Assembly (NCBI GenBank): GCA_019244235.1
Contig: JAFASY010000039.1
Coordinates: 1 to 51,539 of the forward strand
From: Chroococcidiopsidaceae cyanobacterium CP_BM_ER_R8_30
GTDB taxonomy: Bacteria; Cyanobacteriota; Cyanobacteriia; Cyanobacteriales; Chroococcidiopsidaceae
Length of the DNA: 51,539 bases
Reading direction: 5' to 3'
The notes under the pieces were generated by a model. It did not search any database. It was not told where the DNA came from and was given only the letters and a program-made list of their open reading frames with translations. Below are positions 4,427 to 51,045 of the stretch, piece after piece. Position 1 is the stretch's first letter, and the number at the start of each line of letters is the position of its first letter. The translations under genes were made by a program, and so were the position numbers.

Positions 4427-4831
4427 ATGCGTCGCTTGAAATTTCTACCTTGGCGATCGCTCATCCAAGTTTCTGCCCTCGTGACCTTAATTGTTGTAGT
4501 CCTGGAGTTCTTGCTAGTACTGGGTTACGAACAATCTTCTGCAATCCGCAGTGCCATAGTGATTCTGAGTAGACCCCCGTTGGGATTATTGTTTCCCTTT
4601 GCAGTAGCAGTCGGTTTAGGAGCTTTGGCAGTCTTATTGCTAGAGCGTTTACACCAACAAGTGAGCATTAACACTAGCTGCTTGTGGGCGCTAGTTTTGT
4701 GTCTCGCGCTACTCCTGCTTTTCAAGTCAATGGTGCCTCAAATACCAGCTATCCTCGTAGCCTTCAATGAAATTCAGTTGATCGGTATTATAGTCGGTGT
4801 TTTTTGGAAAGGTCGTCCCTACTGGCGATAG
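4427..4831 (+). CDS. Small hypothetical membrane protein
   Basis: 134 residues with four hydrophobic segments (about 13-33, 50-70, 85-103 and 108-126), very short loops and a basic N-terminus (MRRLKFLPWR), consistent with an integral inner-membrane protein, N-terminus inside. I do not recognise the family and see no catalytic motif. It follows the hypothetical membrane protein ending at 4351 by 75 bases and ends 10 bases before the next start, so the three plus-strand genes 2933-5747 could be one transcript. A GAGAG lies just before the ATG. Confidence 0.6.
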   Translation: MRRLKFLPWRSLIQVSALVTLIVVVLEFLLVLGYEQSSAIRSAIVILSRPPLGLLFPFAVAVGLGALAVLLLERLHQQVSINTSCLWALVLCLALLLLFKSMVPQIPAILVAFNEIQLIGIIVGVFWKGRPYWR

Positions 4832-4841
4832 CTTTAACACT

Positions 4842-5747
4842 ATGGCTGCTAATCTATCAGGCTACCGTTCGCAATCAGAGGATACCACTCCAGAAATTGA
4901 TCGATTTCTCATGCTGGCTTTCCGTCAGATGCCCATATGGAAAAAGGTACACTTAACAAACGAAGCAACCAAGGGGCTTCAGCAATGGGCACTGATCGGC
5001 ATCCGTAATCAATACCCTGATGCTAATCCTGCCGAAGTGCGATTTCACTTAGCAGTTAGATGGTTGGGTAAGGAAATTGCACAGCAACTTTATAGGGATG
5101 GTGAGGGAAAAATAGTGGAGGCGGAATCAATTAGCCTAGCATTAAGAATGGCGGAAATTCTGGATGCTCTTGGTATACCCTACTTAATTGGTGGCTCTGT
5201 AGCAAGTTCAATTTTAGGGGAACCGCGTGCCACTCTAGATGTAGATATAGTTGCTGACTTACAGCTTTCTCACGTACAGCCTTTAGTATCAGTCATGACG
5301 GGGGAATTCTTTATCGACGAGATGATGGTAGTAGAGGCAATTGAACATAAATCGTCTTTTAATGTCATCCATCTCGACACTATGCAGAAAGTCGATATCT
5401 TTATACTCTCCGATCAGCCTCTAGCACAATCTGAAATGCAGAGACGGCAGCAATTAGTCATCAATCAACGTTCTGCCGGAGCTGCCTCCGGCAGCGCGCC
5501 CGTGTCAGCTCAAAACCCTGAGCGCCTAATTTGGTTGTCTTCCCCAGAAGATATCATTTTACAAAAACTCCTTTGGTATCGCCTTGGTCATCAGGTTTCG
5601 GATCGACAGTGGCGCGACGTTTTGGGAGTGTTGAAAGTTCAAGCCACACTTGATTTTGGCTATCTAGCTCAGTGGAGTGAGACGTTGGGACTAGAAAACT
5701 TGATGGCGCAAGCACTGCGAGAAGCGGGGCATAGTGAGAGTCGCTGA
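4842..5747 (+). CDS. Nucleotidyltransferase-fold protein with N-terminal cyanobacterial domain
   Basis: The ATG at 4842 (MAANLSGYR) is preferred over one 15 codons earlier that overlaps the previous gene; the product is 301 residues. Residues about 25-90 resemble a small helical domain common in cyanobacterial hypotheticals (IRNQYP..EVRFHLAVRWLG). Residues about 110-290 show a nucleotidyltransferase pattern: GGSVAS followed by LDVDIVADL, the usual GS and DxD positions of the MNT/AbiEii-like superfamily. Proteins of this sort are often antitoxin- or toxin-like or are uncharacterised; the actual substrate is unknown. Near residue 215 an Ala/Ser/Gly-rich stretch is encoded by a perfect GC palindrome (5473-5494) that looks like an in-frame repeat insertion. 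Confidence 0.65.
   Translation: MAANLSGYRSQSEDTTPEIDRFLMLAFRQMPIWKKVHLTNEATKGLQQWALIGIRNQYPDANPAEVRFHLAVRWLGKEIAQQLYRDGEGKIVEAESISLALRMAEILDALGIPYLIGGSVASSILGEPRATLDVDIVADLQLSHVQPLVSVMTGEFFIDEMMVVEAIEHKSSFNVIHLDTMQKVDIFILSDQPLAQSEMQRRQQLVINQRSAGAASGSAPVSAQNPERLIWLSSPEDIILQKLLWYRLGHQVSDRQWRDVLGVLKVQATLDFGYLAQWSETLGLENLMAQALREAGHSESR
5473..5494. repeat. GC-rich hairpin (GCCGGAG-core family) inside a coding region
   Basis: Perfect nine-base arms CTGCCGGAG / CTCCGGCAG around a CTGC loop. The core GCCGGAG...CTCCGGC is shared with hairpins in lipA and at 35868-35910. Here it is read through in frame, adding an Ala/Gly/Ser-rich insert to the nucleotidyltransferase-like protein. I see no clear direct repeats at its ends. 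Confidence 0.6.
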
Positions 5748-12316: not shown

Positions 12317-12672
12317 TACTGAGTTCCTCTAGTAGTAAACATCACGTGATATATTAGGCTTGCTAACATTACTTTTCTAAGTTATGTAGTATGCTTGAAT
12401 ATAGAAAAACTAATGAACTATATGCTCCAAAATGGAGTTTTACGACAAAAAGCCTACTACTTGACTTAGTCAACGTTTTCCTGCCGTGCTACGGCAGGAA
12501 AACGTTGACCCCAACCTTCAAAGGAACGTTGGCAGTCTTGTAATAAAACTATGAGGTAAGGCTAACACTAACTCTAATTTCTGTTCTAGCGCAATTCCAC
12601 TGAAGAATTGTGCTGTTGCTCACATTTAAGCTAAACGTAATTCCAGTAAATCTACGGTTTGCCAGCAAGAGA
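12317..12672. other. Intergenic region with a long perfect palindrome
   Basis: 356 bases between the divergent response-regulator and lipA genes. It should hold promoters for both, but I do not see convincing -35/-10 pairs. The only clear element is the palindrome at 12469-12509. The open frame that extends lipA upstream to 12610 has no good start signal. Confidence 0.5.
12469..12509. repeat. Perfect palindrome, 19-base arms, 3-base loop
   Basis: GTCAACGTTTTCCTGCCGT (12469-12487) is exactly complementary to 12491-12509, with GCT between. The long perfect stem and three-base loop are the same architecture as the hairpin at 35868-35910, though the sequence differs. No T-run follows; it lies upstream of lipA rather than after a gene, so a mobile hairpin or a protein-binding cruciform is more likely than a terminator. 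Confidence 0.7.
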
Positions 12673-13656
12673 ATGACTCAATCACCTGCTATCCATTCCA
12701 ACTCCGAAATTGAGCTTGCGGGAGTTCGTCGCCGGAGGCGGCTCCGGCGAAACATTGAGCTTGCAAAACCGCAACACCAGCAGAACGTTGAGGCAATGCC
12801 AACGTGGTTGCGCCGCTCAATTGGTAAAGCTAGTGAACTTTCGACAGTACAAAGAATTATCAAGCAAAGACAAATCCATACAATCTGCGAAGAGGGACGT
12901 TGTCCTAACCGAGGCGAGTGCTATGCCAAACAGACGGCAACTTTTTTGCTTATGGGACCAACCTGCACTCGGTCTTGCGGCTTTTGTCAAGTAGATAAGG
13001 GTCATGCACCCATGCCCTTGGATCTCAAGGAACCGCAAAAGGTAGCGGAGTCAGTACAGTTGTTGGGATTACGTTACGTAGTGCTAACTTCTGTGGCGCG
13101 TGACGATCTACCAGATGGAGGGGCTAACTGGTTTGTGACATCAATGTTGGCTATCCGCCAATTGAATGCAGGAACTCAAATTGAGGTGTTGACACCAGAT
13201 TTTTGGGGTGGTGCAGGTAATGGGATCAACAGCCAACGCCAACGTATTGCGACAGTTACTTATGCCAGACCAGCTTGTTATAACCATAATGTCGAGACAG
13301 TGAGGCGTTTACAAGGTCCAGTGCGACGAGGAGCTAAGTACGAACGCTCACTCCAAGTTCTTCGGATAGTTAAAGAGTTAGATGCCACCATCCCCACGAA
13401 ATCTGGACTGATGTTGGGGCATGGTGAAACCAGAGATGAGGTGATTGAGACAATGGCGGACTTACGAGCAGTGGGTTGTGATCGCCTAACACTAGGTCAG
13501 TACATGCGTCCCTCACTAGCTCATCTACCAGTTCAAAAGTATTGGACTCCAGCAGAATTTGACCAGTTGGGAGCAATTGCGCGAGAGATGGGCTTTACTC
13601 ACGTTCGTTCTGGTCCCCTTGTTCGCAGTTCTTACCATGCAGGAGAAAGCGAGTAG
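12673..13656 (+). CDS. lipA: Lipoyl synthase
   Basis: Radical-SAM enzyme that inserts two sulfurs into protein-bound octanoyl groups to make lipoyl cofactors for 2-oxoacid dehydrogenases and the glycine cleavage system. The auxiliary cluster motif [12 protein letters not shown] is near residue 75, the SAM-cluster motif CTRSCGFC near 105, and the C-terminal RSSYHA supplies the serine ligand. The start ATG at 12673 ([10 protein letters not shown]) gives 327 residues. The N-terminus carries a 15-residue in-frame insertion rich in arginine ([10 protein letters not shown]), encoded by a GC hairpin flanked by 11-base direct repeats; it lies before the conserved core, so activity is probably kept. 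The 3' end overlaps cobJ by 25 bases. Confidence 0.95.
12709..12764. mobile_element. 34-base GC hairpin element with 11-base target duplication inside lipA
   Basis: ATTGAGCTTGC occurs at 12709-12719 and again, exactly, at 12754-12764. Between them (12720-12753) is a 34-base insert centred on CGCCGGAG GCGG CTCCGGCG. Repeat plus insert total 45 bases, so lipA stays in frame and gains the residues between two IELA copies. An exact flanking repeat around a palindromic unit is the footprint expected of insertion with target-site duplication by a non-autonomous element moved in trans. No transposase is present. Confidence 0.75.
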
Positions 13657-34643: not shown

Positions 34644-35810
34644 ATGAACATAGATACATTTACCAAACAGCTCCAAGGGATGCACAACCGCTTGGAGCTA
34701 CTAACGCAAGCCACAGTTGCTACGGTTCAGGAGCAATCAGATTTGCTGCTACCTAGAGTCTTAAAAGAACTGGGGACTGCCTCAGAAGAACTGCAAGTGG
34801 CTATAGAGGAGCTGTTACAGCAGACTGAGGCATTGATAACTGCACGAGCTGCGGTGGCAGCTCAACGCCAGCAATACCTTGAGTTGTTCGATAGAGCACC
34901 ATCCCCTTGCTTAGTAACTGATGAGCTGGGGACAATTCAGGAAGCCAATCAAGCTGCCGCCCAACTCCTCAAGGTTGAGCCACAGTTCTTACTAGGTAAG
35001 CCACTGCTCCTTTTTATTGCAAAGGAAGAGCAAGAGCTGTTTCATTGCCAACTACGCTGGCTGCAAAAAACTCTAGAGTCTGAGGAGTTCATCGTACAGC
35101 TTTGTCCGCGTGATTGTGAACCCTTGGTTGCAACTGTGGCGGTGACTCCTGTGACTAATGGCGAAGGTAAGCCGACTACTCTATATATATGGGTACGAAA
35201 CGTAGCTAAACAGAGGCTTGCGGCGGTCGAGCCAGACTCTGACCTATTAGAATACTCCTGGAAAGTGTATGCCAAAGGAGAGCTAATTCCTCTCCCATCC
35301 CAAACGATTTGGCAAGTCCGTGAAGGTGTAGTTAAGCTAAGCACAGTGAGCGCTGATGGTTCCCAAGTGTTAGTAGGATTGGCTGGACCTGGGATACCCT
35401 TTGGCTCTAGTCTGAGCGTACAACAGACATGTCGAGCTACAGCTCTAACGAAGGTAGAGCTAGTCCGTTTTTCCTTCACACAGCTTGCAACTACCCCGCA
35501 TCTTGCACAGACCCTCTTACCTCATATTCAGCGACGGCTACAACAGACTGAATCCCTGTTAGCTATAGTTGGAAAGCGACATGTCAAAGACCGATTGTTT
35601 TCTCTGTTGCAGCTATTGAAACAAAACTTTGGTCACCCGACACTGCAAGGAGTTCGGCTCTCAATTCGCTTCACGCATCAAGATCTAGCCGATGCCTGCT
35701 CTACTACCAGGGTGACAATCACGCGACTGCTTTGCCACTTACAGGAGCAAGGGAAAATTGCCTATGATTCCAAAAAACATATCATTTTCATGCAGGAAAT
35801 CGATCCCTGA
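34644..35810 (+). CDS. PAS domain fused to a Crp/Fnr-type regulator
   Basis: 388 residues. The N-terminus (about 1-75) is helical, probably a coiled coil. A PAS domain spans about 80-195 (QQYLELFDRAPSPCLVTDE, IQEANQAAAQLL). A Crp-type barrel spans about 205-300 (QTIWQVREGVVKL, VGLAGPGIPFG), and a winged helix lies at the C-terminus (about 340-380; FTHQDLADACSTTRVTITRLL). The PAS domain may sense redox, light or a ligand and alter DNA binding. The PAS segment resembles that of the PAS-receiver protein at 38831 (both have QQ/HQRYYDLF..AP and LLVGKP-like stretches), suggesting shared ancestry. Confidence 0.82.
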   Translation: MNIDTFTKQLQGMHNRLELLTQATVATVQEQSDLLLPRVLKELGTASEELQVAIEELLQQTEALITARAAVAAQRQQYLELFDRAPSPCLVTDELGTIQEANQAAAQLLKVEPQFLLGKPLLLFIAKEEQELFHCQLRWLQKTLESEEFIVQLCPRDCEPLVATVAVTPVTNGEGKPTTLYIWVRNVAKQRLAAVEPDSDLLEYSWKVYAKGELIPLPSQTIWQVREGVVKLSTVSADGSQVLVGLAGPGIPFGSSLSVQQTCRATALTKVELVRFSFTQLATTPHLAQTLLPHIQRRLQQTESLLAIVGKRHVKDRLFSLLQLLKQNFGHPTLQGVRLSIRFTHQDLADACSTTRVTITRLLCHLQEQGKIAYDSKKHIIFMQEIDP

Positions 35811-35867: not shown

Positions 35868-35910
35868 CTCAAAGCATCAGCCGGAGTTCTACTCCGGCTG
35901 ATGCTTTGAG
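35868..35910. repeat. Perfect palindrome, 20-base arms, 3-base loop (GCCGGAG-core)
   Basis: CTCAAAGCATCAGCCGGAGT (35868-35887), loop TCT, and an exact reverse complement at 35891-35910. It contains the GCCGGAG/CTCCGGC core shared with the insert in lipA and the hairpin at 5473. It lies between the PAS-regulator stop and malQ; it could end the upstream transcript, but there is no T-run. Confidence 0.75.
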
Positions 35911-35940
35911 TAAACTCAATTTCATCTCGTTTACAGCTCT

Positions 35941-37476
35941 ATGACCCCTTCCTCTGAATCCCAACCTGACATTTTTAGCACTAGAAGCAGCGGGATTCTA
36001 CTCCATCCCACCTCTTTTCCTGGTCGATTTGGTATTGGCGATCTGGGAGCAGCAGCCTACCAGTTTGTCGATTTTCTTGCCGATACCAATCAACAACTTT
36101 GGCAAGTCCTGCCTTTAGGACCTATAGCCTTTGGTAACTCTCCCTACATGAGTTACTCAGCTTTGGCAGGTAATCCTCTACTTATTAGCTTGGAGCTATT
36201 GCAAGGGGAAGGATTTCTCAAACCTGAAGACTTTGAGCAACTGCCGCAATTCTCCGACGACCGCGTTGAGTATGACCAAGTAACCGCCATCAAAATAGCC
36301 TTACTTAAGCAGGCAAGTGACAACTTCAAAAAGATGGCAACGCCTGAACGCAAAGAACAATTTCAGCAGTTCTGTGAGAGTAAAGCTGATTGGTTAGATG
36401 ACTATGCCCTGTTCATGGCGCTCAAGCATACCCATAACGGAGCTAGTTGGTATACTTGGGAACCAGAGCTTGCCAAGCGACAGCCCGAAGCAATCGATGC
36501 CTGTAAGCAACAGTTGTCAGCAGAAATCTTTTTCGAGCAATTCCTACAGTTTGAGTTCTTCCGACAGTGGACTGACTTGCGACAGTATGCTAATTCCAAA
36601 GGAATTCGGATTATCGGAGACATTCCTATCTATGTTGCCCACGATAGCGCCGATACCTGGGCGAATCCAGCTAACTTCTGCTTAGATGAAGCGACAGGAG
36701 AACCAACACTAATGGCAGGCACTCCCCCAGATGCCTTTAGTGAGACCGGACAATTGTGGGGCAATCCTATTTATAACTGGGACTACCTGCAACAGTCTGG
36801 TTTTCACTGGTGGATTCAGCGTTTTCAGGCAATGCTCGATTATGTCGATCTAATTCGCATCGATCATTTCCTAGGATTTGAGGCATATTGGGCGGTTCCT
36901 CAAGGTGAGCAGTATGCTACCAATGGAAGTTGGATTAAAGCTCCTGGCAAAGAGTTTTTTGAAGTGCTGCGACAAAAATTAGGGACGTTACCTATCTTGG
37001 CGGAAGATTTGGGAACGGTAACTCCTGAAGCAATCGCTCTGCGAGACTATTTTGGGTTTCCGGGGATGAAAGTGCTGCAATTTGCCTTTAACGAAGATTT
37101 TAGGTGTCCCTACCTGCCGTTCAACTATCCACCCAACTGCGTAGTTTATACTGGCACCCACGACAATGACACAACTGTTAGCTGGTATGAAAAGTTACCA
37201 GAGTATGCTCAAAAGAATGTCTTGACCTATTTAGGCTGCATCAGTCCAGAGGGGTTGCATTGGGACATGATTCGCTTGGCATTTAGCTCAGTCGCTAATC
37301 TGGCTATTATTCCGTTGCAAGATATTCTGGGGTTGGGTAGTGAAGCTCGCATGAACTTTCCTGGTCAAGCTGAGGGGAATTGGGAGTGGCGCTATCGAGC
37401 TGAAGCGTTGAGCGATGAAATTCGCCATCGTCTTGGACACCTAACTTGGTTTTTGGGTCGGGCTCCGGTCAAGTAG
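35941..37476 (+). CDS. malQ: 4-alpha-glucanotransferase (amylomaltase)
   Basis: 511 residues, GH77 family and the usual length. It transfers alpha-1,4-glucan segments between maltooligosaccharides during glycogen turnover in the cytosol. The N-terminal SGILLHPTSFPGRFGIGDLG and QLWQVLPLGPIAFGNSPYMS are conserved. Catalytic residues lie in LIRIDHFLGF (nucleophile Asp), LAEDLGTVTPE (acid/base Glu) and YTGTHDNDTT (third carboxylate). ATG at 35941. The last 8 bases overlap the convergent CheR gene. Confidence 0.96.
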   Translation: MTPSSESQPDIFSTRSSGILLHPTSFPGRFGIGDLGAAAYQFVDFLADTNQQLWQVLPLGPIAFGNSPYMSYSALAGNPLLISLELLQGEGFLKPEDFEQLPQFSDDRVEYDQVTAIKIALLKQASDNFKKMATPERKEQFQQFCESKADWLDDYALFMALKHTHNGASWYTWEPELAKRQPEAIDACKQQLSAEIFFEQFLQFEFFRQWTDLRQYANSKGIRIIGDIPIYVAHDSADTWANPANFCLDEATGEPTLMAGTPPDAFSETGQLWGNPIYNWDYLQQSGFHWWIQRFQAMLDYVDLIRIDHFLGFEAYWAVPQGEQYATNGSWIKAPGKEFFEVLRQKLGTLPILAEDLGTVTPEAIALRDYFGFPGMKVLQFAFNEDFRCPYLPFNYPPNCVVYTGTHDNDTTVSWYEKLPEYAQKNVLTYLGCISPEGLHWDMIRLAFSSVANLAIIPLQDILGLGSEARMNFPGQAEGNWEWRYRAEALSDEIRHRLGHLTWFLGRAPVK

Positions 37477-43534: not shown

Positions 43535-43600
43535 CGTCTTGAATGTATGAGGACACCACAATTATATGTAGTCAGCCCCCATTACCCCACTGCCCCTAAT

Positions 43601-43615
43601 CCCCACAAAGTGGGG
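43601..43615. repeat. Short C/G hairpin in a C-rich intergenic patch
   Basis: CCCCAC (43601-43606), loop AAA, GTGGGG (43610-43615), in a patch (43575-43640) of C-runs. Similar CCCCACAAAGTGGGG units look like a dispersed repeat. It lies just upstream of the groES control region. Confidence 0.4.
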
Positions 43616-43641
43616 ACCCCGAGTTCCCCATCACCCCCATT

Positions 43642-50820: not shown

Positions 50821-50884
50821 TGTCGCCGAAAAATTGCGGTCGAGATTGAACTCACGACCTAGTGTACAATTGATGCCTGAACTC

Positions 50885-50920
50885 AAAGGCCAGCCGGAGT
50901 GGAACCCCGGCTACTGCTTT
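50885..50920. repeat. GCCGG-core hairpin after the phasin-like gene
   Basis: AAAG (50885-50888) ... CTTT (50917-50920) and AGCCGG (50892-50897) / CCGGCT (50907-50912) can pair. The order CAAAGG..CAGCCGGAGT..GGCT..TGCTTT closely resembles the palindrome at 35868-35910, so it is a diverged member of the same family. It may double as a terminator. Confidence 0.55.
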
Positions 50921-51045
50921 CTTGCCAGCTCAACCTCACAAAGCTTGTAGAGCCCTATGGTTCGCTCTTGATCTGTGAAGCGAGTAGTTCTTCCCTAGGC
51001 TTGGCAATGGGGAAGGACACAACAACTCATTAGGGAGGAATAATT

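Follow-up and report, generated by a model that had tools for sequence, protein, structure and literature searches.

The lipoyl synthase gene lipA of this cyanobacterium carries, in frame, two tandem units of a small hairpin element, and the same unit recurs at many other places of the genome, nearly always bordered by the pentamer TTGAG. Very likely, it represents a 45-bp non-autonomous element that inserts at TTGAG, leaves TTGAG on both sides and now occupies some 112 places or more, with frame-breaking copies probably selected out; as to the way it moves, we prefer a Y1 transposase acting in trans. The window, i.e. the whole stretch of 51,539 nucleotides that was analysed, contains the following features of the lipA locus:

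12673..13656, + strand: lipA (lipoyl synthase), 327 codons counted from an ATG matching the MTQS/MNQS starts of some relatives
12710..12714, + strand: left TTGAG target pentamer; a single ATTGAGG stands here in 13 of 109 relative loci
12710..12759, + strand: unit 1, which starts and ends with TTGAG and has a 45-bp period; it scores 62.0 bits with covariance model R1
12730..12749, + strand: core hairpin, 8-bp arms and GCGG loop
12755..12792, + strand: unit 2, a shortened tandem unit with a 33-bp period, head TTGAGCTTGC, tail CAGCAGAACGTTGAG
12715..12792, + strand: net lipA insertion relative to the relatives, 78 bp = 26 codons; the cut position within the repeated pentamer is ambiguous

The ORF was assigned to lipoyl synthase by NCBIfam TIGR00510 (344.9 bits, the cut-off being 310.25), and it matches the solved LipA structure PDB 4u0o with an E-value of 2.1e-135. 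Since the alignment with 4u0o runs from residue 41 on, the insert precedes the conserved core, as a preliminary description of this DNA had stated. Two further elements of that description, the direct repeat ATTGAGCTTGC at 12709-12719 and 12754-12764 (45 bases apart) and the palindrome CGCCGGAG-GCGG-CTCCGGCG at 12730-12749, were found again; in shuffles of the window such a palindrome with up to three mismatches is expected 0.00 times. It also proved right that lipA keeps its frame, because the reading frame stays open across the whole insert, which consists of whole codons and has an Arg-rich reading. The proposed size of 15 residues, however, has to be corrected to 78 bp or 26 codons, as a second unit directly follows the first one. 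The 78 bp that separate the first and the third TTGAG in lipA correspond to 45 + 33, i.e. two tandem units. Unit 2 (12755-12792) spans the model from the first to the last position with 12 middle bases absent and scores 21.1 bits (E 8e-6 for 50 bases searched). Its right end of 15 bases is one mismatch away from unit ends elsewhere in the genome. Unit 2 may have been shortened by slippage.

An in-frame ATG at 12796, 3′ of the insert, is a possible alternative start, and translation from there would leave the insert untranslated. Since a SEIE-(A/V)LP segment is retained in the LipA of several relatives, the sequence comparison argues for a start upstream of the insert, although ATG 12796 could serve instead. 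The N-terminus of LipA is variable. In the predicted fold (overall pLDDT 72.3, pTM 0.75) the insert falls in an N-terminal region of low confidence (residues 1-40, with block means of 38-48), so that the model neither supports nor excludes a function of the insert; we take it to be a probably tolerated N-terminal stretch. LipA is matched once in the own genome and at least twice in 36 of the 39 relatives; in one of these relatives at least, G028, the two matches are pieces of a single gene. A second LipA gene of the own genome may lie in an assembly gap. About 160 bases 5′ of the lipA ATG, at 12469-12509 of the window, there is also an inverted repeat whose 19-bp arms (GTCAACGTTTTCCTGCCGT) match perfectly; a second copy of the arm with up to two mismatches was not present in the fetched loci of the own genome.

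A hairpin search of the own genome (5.54 Mb, 328 contigs) returned 84 matches, compared with 2 in the reversed control. Many of the 84 are one palindrome counted on both strands, and the fetched loci reduce them to 62 places, some of which have the right half only and four of which lack unit features. The unit has the form TTGAG-CTTGC-N10-hairpin-N5-TTGAG with a 45-bp period and reads TTGAG-CTTGC-N10-YGCCGGAG-NNNN-CTCCGGCR-N5-TTGAG at most hairpin places. From 37 places chosen for a recognisable head and tail, lipA unit 1 being one of them, we built an alignment and the covariance model R1. In the own genome R1 finds at least 143 matches at E<=1 and at least 112 at E<=0.01, including the 37 copies that built the model; these are lower bounds with rough E-values, as 150 of 2721 candidates were scored. 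Since an unfiltered scan of the window gave four full units, two of them new relative to the genome-wide R1 matches, the true copy number is higher than 112. In the core stem 94.1% of the cells pair, in the outer helix 67.5%. The covariation score of 0.128 is reached in 0 of 500 shuffles; the numbers of double-change pairs and of pair types are reached in 394 and 481 of the shuffles, respectively, and so do not stand out. Rfam gave two matches, both far under their gathering scores, and a literature search, with subscription journals mostly outside its reach, found no published title or abstract describing the TTGAG unit. Besides lipA, the window contains these units:

5464..5513, - strand: further unit, insert 45 bp, inside the ORF 4797-5747 (+), read as NQRSAGAASGSAPVSAQ; the ORF has no known-family match
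35868..35919, - strand: further unit, insert 47 bp (length not divisible by three), between the ORFs 34644-35810 and 35941-37476
50882..50933, - strand: further unit, insert 47 bp (length not divisible by three), outside ORFs of at least 150 aa closing within the window

The flanks of the 112 copies are nearly constant. TTGAG stands on the left in 94 copies, on the right in 97 and on both sides in 82, and not a single copy has equal flanks other than TTGAG. In the genome search for the unit that the preliminary description had proposed, the flanking repeats are the fixed TTGAG and not 11-base duplicates. Because the copies share one flanking pentamer instead of varying duplicated targets, the 11-base target duplication had to be dismissed. 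In lipA, TTGAGCTTGC is the unit's own head and the second 11-mer is the head of unit 2; moreover, the recognisable empty sites of relatives (13 of 109) read ATTGAGG, only 6 of the 11 bases, and not a single copy of the 11-mer. The five bases that follow the left pentamer are repeated after the right one in four of the 112 copies, i.e. lipA and three others, all with a further unit following. After the right TTGAG a T occurs in 60 of 97 copies, compared with 321 of 1366 TTGAG in the same loci, a further target preference.

When insert length and position are compared, a clear contrast emerges. The length is a multiple of three in 84 of the 112 copies, 63 of which lie inside long ORFs (stop-to-stop, 150 codons or more, and reaching 15 codons or more beyond the copy in either direction); none of the 28 other copies does (Fisher 2e-13). 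This holds within both sub-families (6e-8 and 8e-4). As a frame-shifting copy itself tends to break its stop-to-stop ORF, the unit was excised in silico; 3 of the 28 frame-shifting copies would then fall in a long ORF, the other 25 not. One codon-multiple copy, C305:48800, is in a long ORF only once the unit has been removed. The window shows the same picture, with two full codon-multiple units inside ORFs and two 47-bp units outside ORFs of 150 codons. Within ORFs the units are antisense in 55 cases and sense in 8, the background ratio for pentamers in open frames being 409 to 321 (from 216 kb of coding sequence, units masked; p 1.4e-7). Antisense readings are of the QGFAGGGSGDFLEQAQ or LKASPEEAPATSLSKLK type, and the commonest frame gives Gly/Ser-rich peptides; the lipA units have the rare sense orientation and encode an Arg-rich peptide. 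A Pfam family was matched by 28 of the 30 decorated ORFs that were scanned; enzymes, kinases and transporters are among them. Probably, frame-breaking insertions have been removed by selection and the sense orientation has been disfavoured, so that genes would retain those insertions that form a harmless loop.

The lipA insert is by no means common to all relatives, as the hairpin of the unit is absent from the site in 109 of 109 relative lipA loci. A single ATTGAGG stands in 13 of these loci and reads GAAATTGAGG in 12 of them; two pairs of the 13 are judged to be one genome each that occurs in two collections. The remaining 96 loci are without the empty-site pattern. From the single ATTGAGG in 13 loci it follows that the 78 bp entered at one TTGAG. 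In the relative locus L034, TTGAGCTTAC, which is one base off the unit head, occurs near the site with no insert present; counted back from a conserved Trp, it is placed one codon upstream of the TTGAG of the other relatives. The relative locus L130 has a hairpin-like match, but elsewhere than at the site. For four other genes 20 genomes each were searched, the own one included, and the closer homologues were aligned. The 15 codons of the unit are absent in 3 of 3 aligned gamma-glutamyltransferases (19 relative loci fetched) and in 6 of 6 aligned P-type ATPases (23 relative loci fetched), and in Tex the unit corresponds to a gap in 16 of 16 aligned relatives, of 15 codons (19 in one sequence). 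For Tex, three relatives (L200-L202) have the pentamer at the site in the form CTCAA, and for the ATPase one relative (L240) does; at the gamma-glutamyltransferase site none of the relatives shows the exact pentamer. The oxoprolinase alignment (16 sequences) was not counted, as the site lies in a variable and hence uninformative linker. Altogether, the insert is missing from the aligned relatives in four genes, lipA included, and together with the genome copies this supports the view of the preliminary description that an inserted, dispersed, non-autonomous hairpin element sits in frame in lipA. Apart from this, a fragment 94% identical to the Tex C-terminus is found at another contig end (G000:C290:15544-15846), owing to a strain mixture or a duplication.

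Outside the own genome the unit was rarely seen. It was detected in one of 59 relatives (G010) and in three of 290 other genomes of the order (G010, G239 and G244), in searches with stricter filters that scored no more than 100 or 20 candidates per genome and can miss copies. The seven matches of G010 are all outside long ORFs, and they share no site with the fetched loci of the own genome. Five of them (L288-L291 and L293) have a repeated context similar to TTTTGAATT/TTTTGAGTT on both sides and perhaps belong to a longer element. G244, a member of another family, has four 45-bp copies in open frames of 146-539 codons, and its copies of 46 and 50 bp are at an ORF edge or outside. The single copy of G239, of 45 bp, lies in a frame of 78 codons. 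A strict pattern gave 0 matches in GTDB 220 contigs, where it is blind to the AGCC sub-family and the own genome was perhaps left out, and no match in viral contigs; the lipA stretch as query had no match among plasmids.

Several scenarios may be considered for the origin of these inserts. One is that the repeat in lipA arose locally, by tandem duplication or slippage at a palindrome present by chance, or that it is a native extension of LipA. This would agree with the 45-base tandem and its direct repeats, which are just the expected product of slippage, with the variable LipA N-terminus and with the near-copy of the unit head that L034 has in this part of lipA. For lipA we nevertheless regard such an origin as highly improbable, because the same unit matches 111 further places, the following 15 bases differ among all 112 copies, and the hairpin is missing from the site in every relative locus; for the family as a whole slippage is excluded, since the units are dispersed. 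A classical MITE, mobilised by a DDE transposase whose 5-bp target duplication is strictly biased to TTGAG, is unlikely, though five identical bases flank 82 of 112 copies on both sides and the pentamer pre-exists at empty sites of some relatives in lipA, Tex and the ATPase gene. The outer ends (head TTGAGCTTGC, tail CCTTGAG) are without terminal inverted repeats by eye, and an equal duplication other than TTGAG occurs in 0 of 112 copies. Small hairpins, many copies and mosaic arrays are also typical of REPINs, which have been reported for RAYT-containing genomes including Nostoc punctiforme (PMC3116915), and a RAYT-like enzyme had been suggested as mover in the preliminary description. In this genome (assembly 97% complete), however, no match exceeds the NF047646 cut-off for RAYT, the best one reaching 32.8 of 80 bits, and the nine weak matches to the RAYT model at E<=10 coincide with Y1 genes. 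There is no constant tag either (of 112 copies, 16 contain GTAG and 13 contain CGTC, at any position), and 63 of 112 copies are inside long ORFs, which makes a REPIN-type element very unlikely. Finally, the inserts could have been selected for a function, e.g. as flexible linkers or regulatory mRNA hairpins, and not merely tolerated. The strong orientation bias, the Gly/Ser-rich peptides of the commonest frame and the maintained pairing of the core stem would be in line with this. Yet, the host proteins are unrelated to one another, a shared insertion site was not seen in the comparisons made, and tolerance plus loss of bad frames accounts for the orientation bias, too; we thus consider selected function decidedly unlikely.

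The mode of movement that we favour for the TTGAG unit is that of the IS200/IS605 family. Its member ISDra2 inserts 3′ of TTGAT by means of a transposase that acts on single strands (PMC2806898). By analogy, the unit would insert at TTGAG (CTCAA on the other strand), with TTGAG left on both sides; it would move as a single-stranded hairpin joined 3′ of TTGAG, through an IS200/IS605-type Y1 transposase acting in trans. In such a reaction the TTGAG at the end of the element would belong to the element itself, and the target would not be duplicated. Insertion 3′ of TTGAG together with a TTGAG end would fit this chemistry and would explain tandem units with a shared pentamer. The fixed target of non-autonomous IS200/IS605 elements has its counterpart in the left TTGAG of 94 of 112 copies and in the pentamer at the empty sites of some relatives. 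The own genome has 11 Y1 transposase matches, nine of them near full length and one of these nine with an internal stop; by eye, the tyrosine motif is Y(I/V)xxQ. A trans-acting IS200/IS605-type TnpA is therefore a possible mover. Unit-like ends were not recognised by eye in the printed flanks of nine TnpA loci, and L174 is the only one of the 11 loci with a unit hairpin, the hairpin and a TnpA fragment being about 1.2 kb apart on contig C90. In an IS605-like pair (L166, L167) the common segment starts at TTGAG, its right end differs from the unit, and its left end is found only twice. No IS with ends matching the unit occurs among the loci examined. Since no transposase is tied to the unit, we infer the single-strand movement in trans and prefer it tentatively; it is unproven and the least certain part of our reading.

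The family also comprises longer members. A search of the fetched loci for heads and tails further apart gave 17 entries of 47-177 bp. Nine are multiples of three in long ORFs, three are multiples of three outside, and four are neither; the remaining entry, whose length is likewise not divisible by three, represents the interior of a 90-bp form. All three entries of 90 bp consist of two units in tandem. Forms of 87, 124, 129, 132, 174 and 177 bp account for nine entries, of which eight are multiples of three, seven of these in long ORFs. The 87-177-bp forms look like the 45-bp unit with additional hairpins nested inside. In L005, L007, L008, L012, L015 and L080 they lie inside ORFs, which concern a di-haem oxidoreductase, FUSC, an ABC transporter, GHL10, a histidine kinase and GH57/DUF3536. 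Conceivably, though we would rather doubt it, the family grows by nesting hairpin modules, mostly in steps of about 42-45 bp (45, 87, 129-132 and 174-177 bp), and thereby adds 15 to 59 whole-codon residues to conserved enzymes at TTGAG, via a single-strand transposase in trans. If so, it would represent a running natural experiment in which proteins are built from mobile hairpins.

In-frame palindromic insertions are best known from Rickettsia. The Rickettsia palindromic elements (RPEs), described as about 150 bp long and forming ten families (PMC10969869), are dispersed palindromes as well; they sit in frame within unrelated protein genes and are read as part of the peptide (PMC10969869, PMC3733652), and the palindrome in protein genes with insert-free orthologues is present here, too. 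The basic unit of the present family, in contrast, measures 45 bp, sits at TTGAG, is cyanobacterial and has longer nested forms, a distinction drawn from RPE descriptions. Intragenic GTAG/CGTC REPs are also small palindromes that occur as monomers and dimers within ORFs, where dimers or groups are reported to add 20-30 residues; most REPs are described as intergenic (PMC3733652). The TTGAG unit differs from them by the missing constant GTAG/CGTC tag, by the genome having no RAYT over the cut-off and by its 63 of 112 copies in long ORFs. Like ISDra2 and IS608 of the IS200/IS605 family, it inserts beside a fixed oligonucleotide (TTGAT for ISDra2, PMC2806898), has hairpin ends and occurs in a genome with Y1 genes, but it has no transposase inside. 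Another case of palindromic coding repeats are the PARCELs (palindromic amphipathic repeat coding elements), for which spread among bacteria has been proposed (PMC2996958); they are described as a 25-residue motif in tandem arrays within ORFs of unassigned function, whereas the units here are single insertions in conserved enzymes. The unit works like RPEs and intragenic REPs, yet by target, size, host and nesting, as judged from descriptions, it is a distinct TTGAG-targeted family. The small dispersed repeats (SDR) of Nostoc (mentioned in PMC3116915) and the MITE Nezha (mentioned in PMC3733652 and PMC10969869) resemble it in being small, dispersed and cyanobacterial. To this picture the present case adds a near-constant 5-base target, a codon-multiple unit, insert-free relatives and the internal contrast of copies of other lengths outside long ORFs. 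By virtue of the target, the relatives and this contrast, the idea that mobile hairpins feed new protein sequence becomes directly testable, and the defined TTGAG target site can be used in hunting the responsible transposase.

A second, unrelated repeat of the CCCCACAAAGTGGGG hairpin type was noticed in codons 647-686 of L011 and at 43574-43635 of the window (match E 2.7e-4). The likeness was recognised by eye, and blastn between the loci gave no hit. This repeat sits in the oxoprolinase gene where the alignments of the relatives break, and it possibly represents another family of in-frame inserts.
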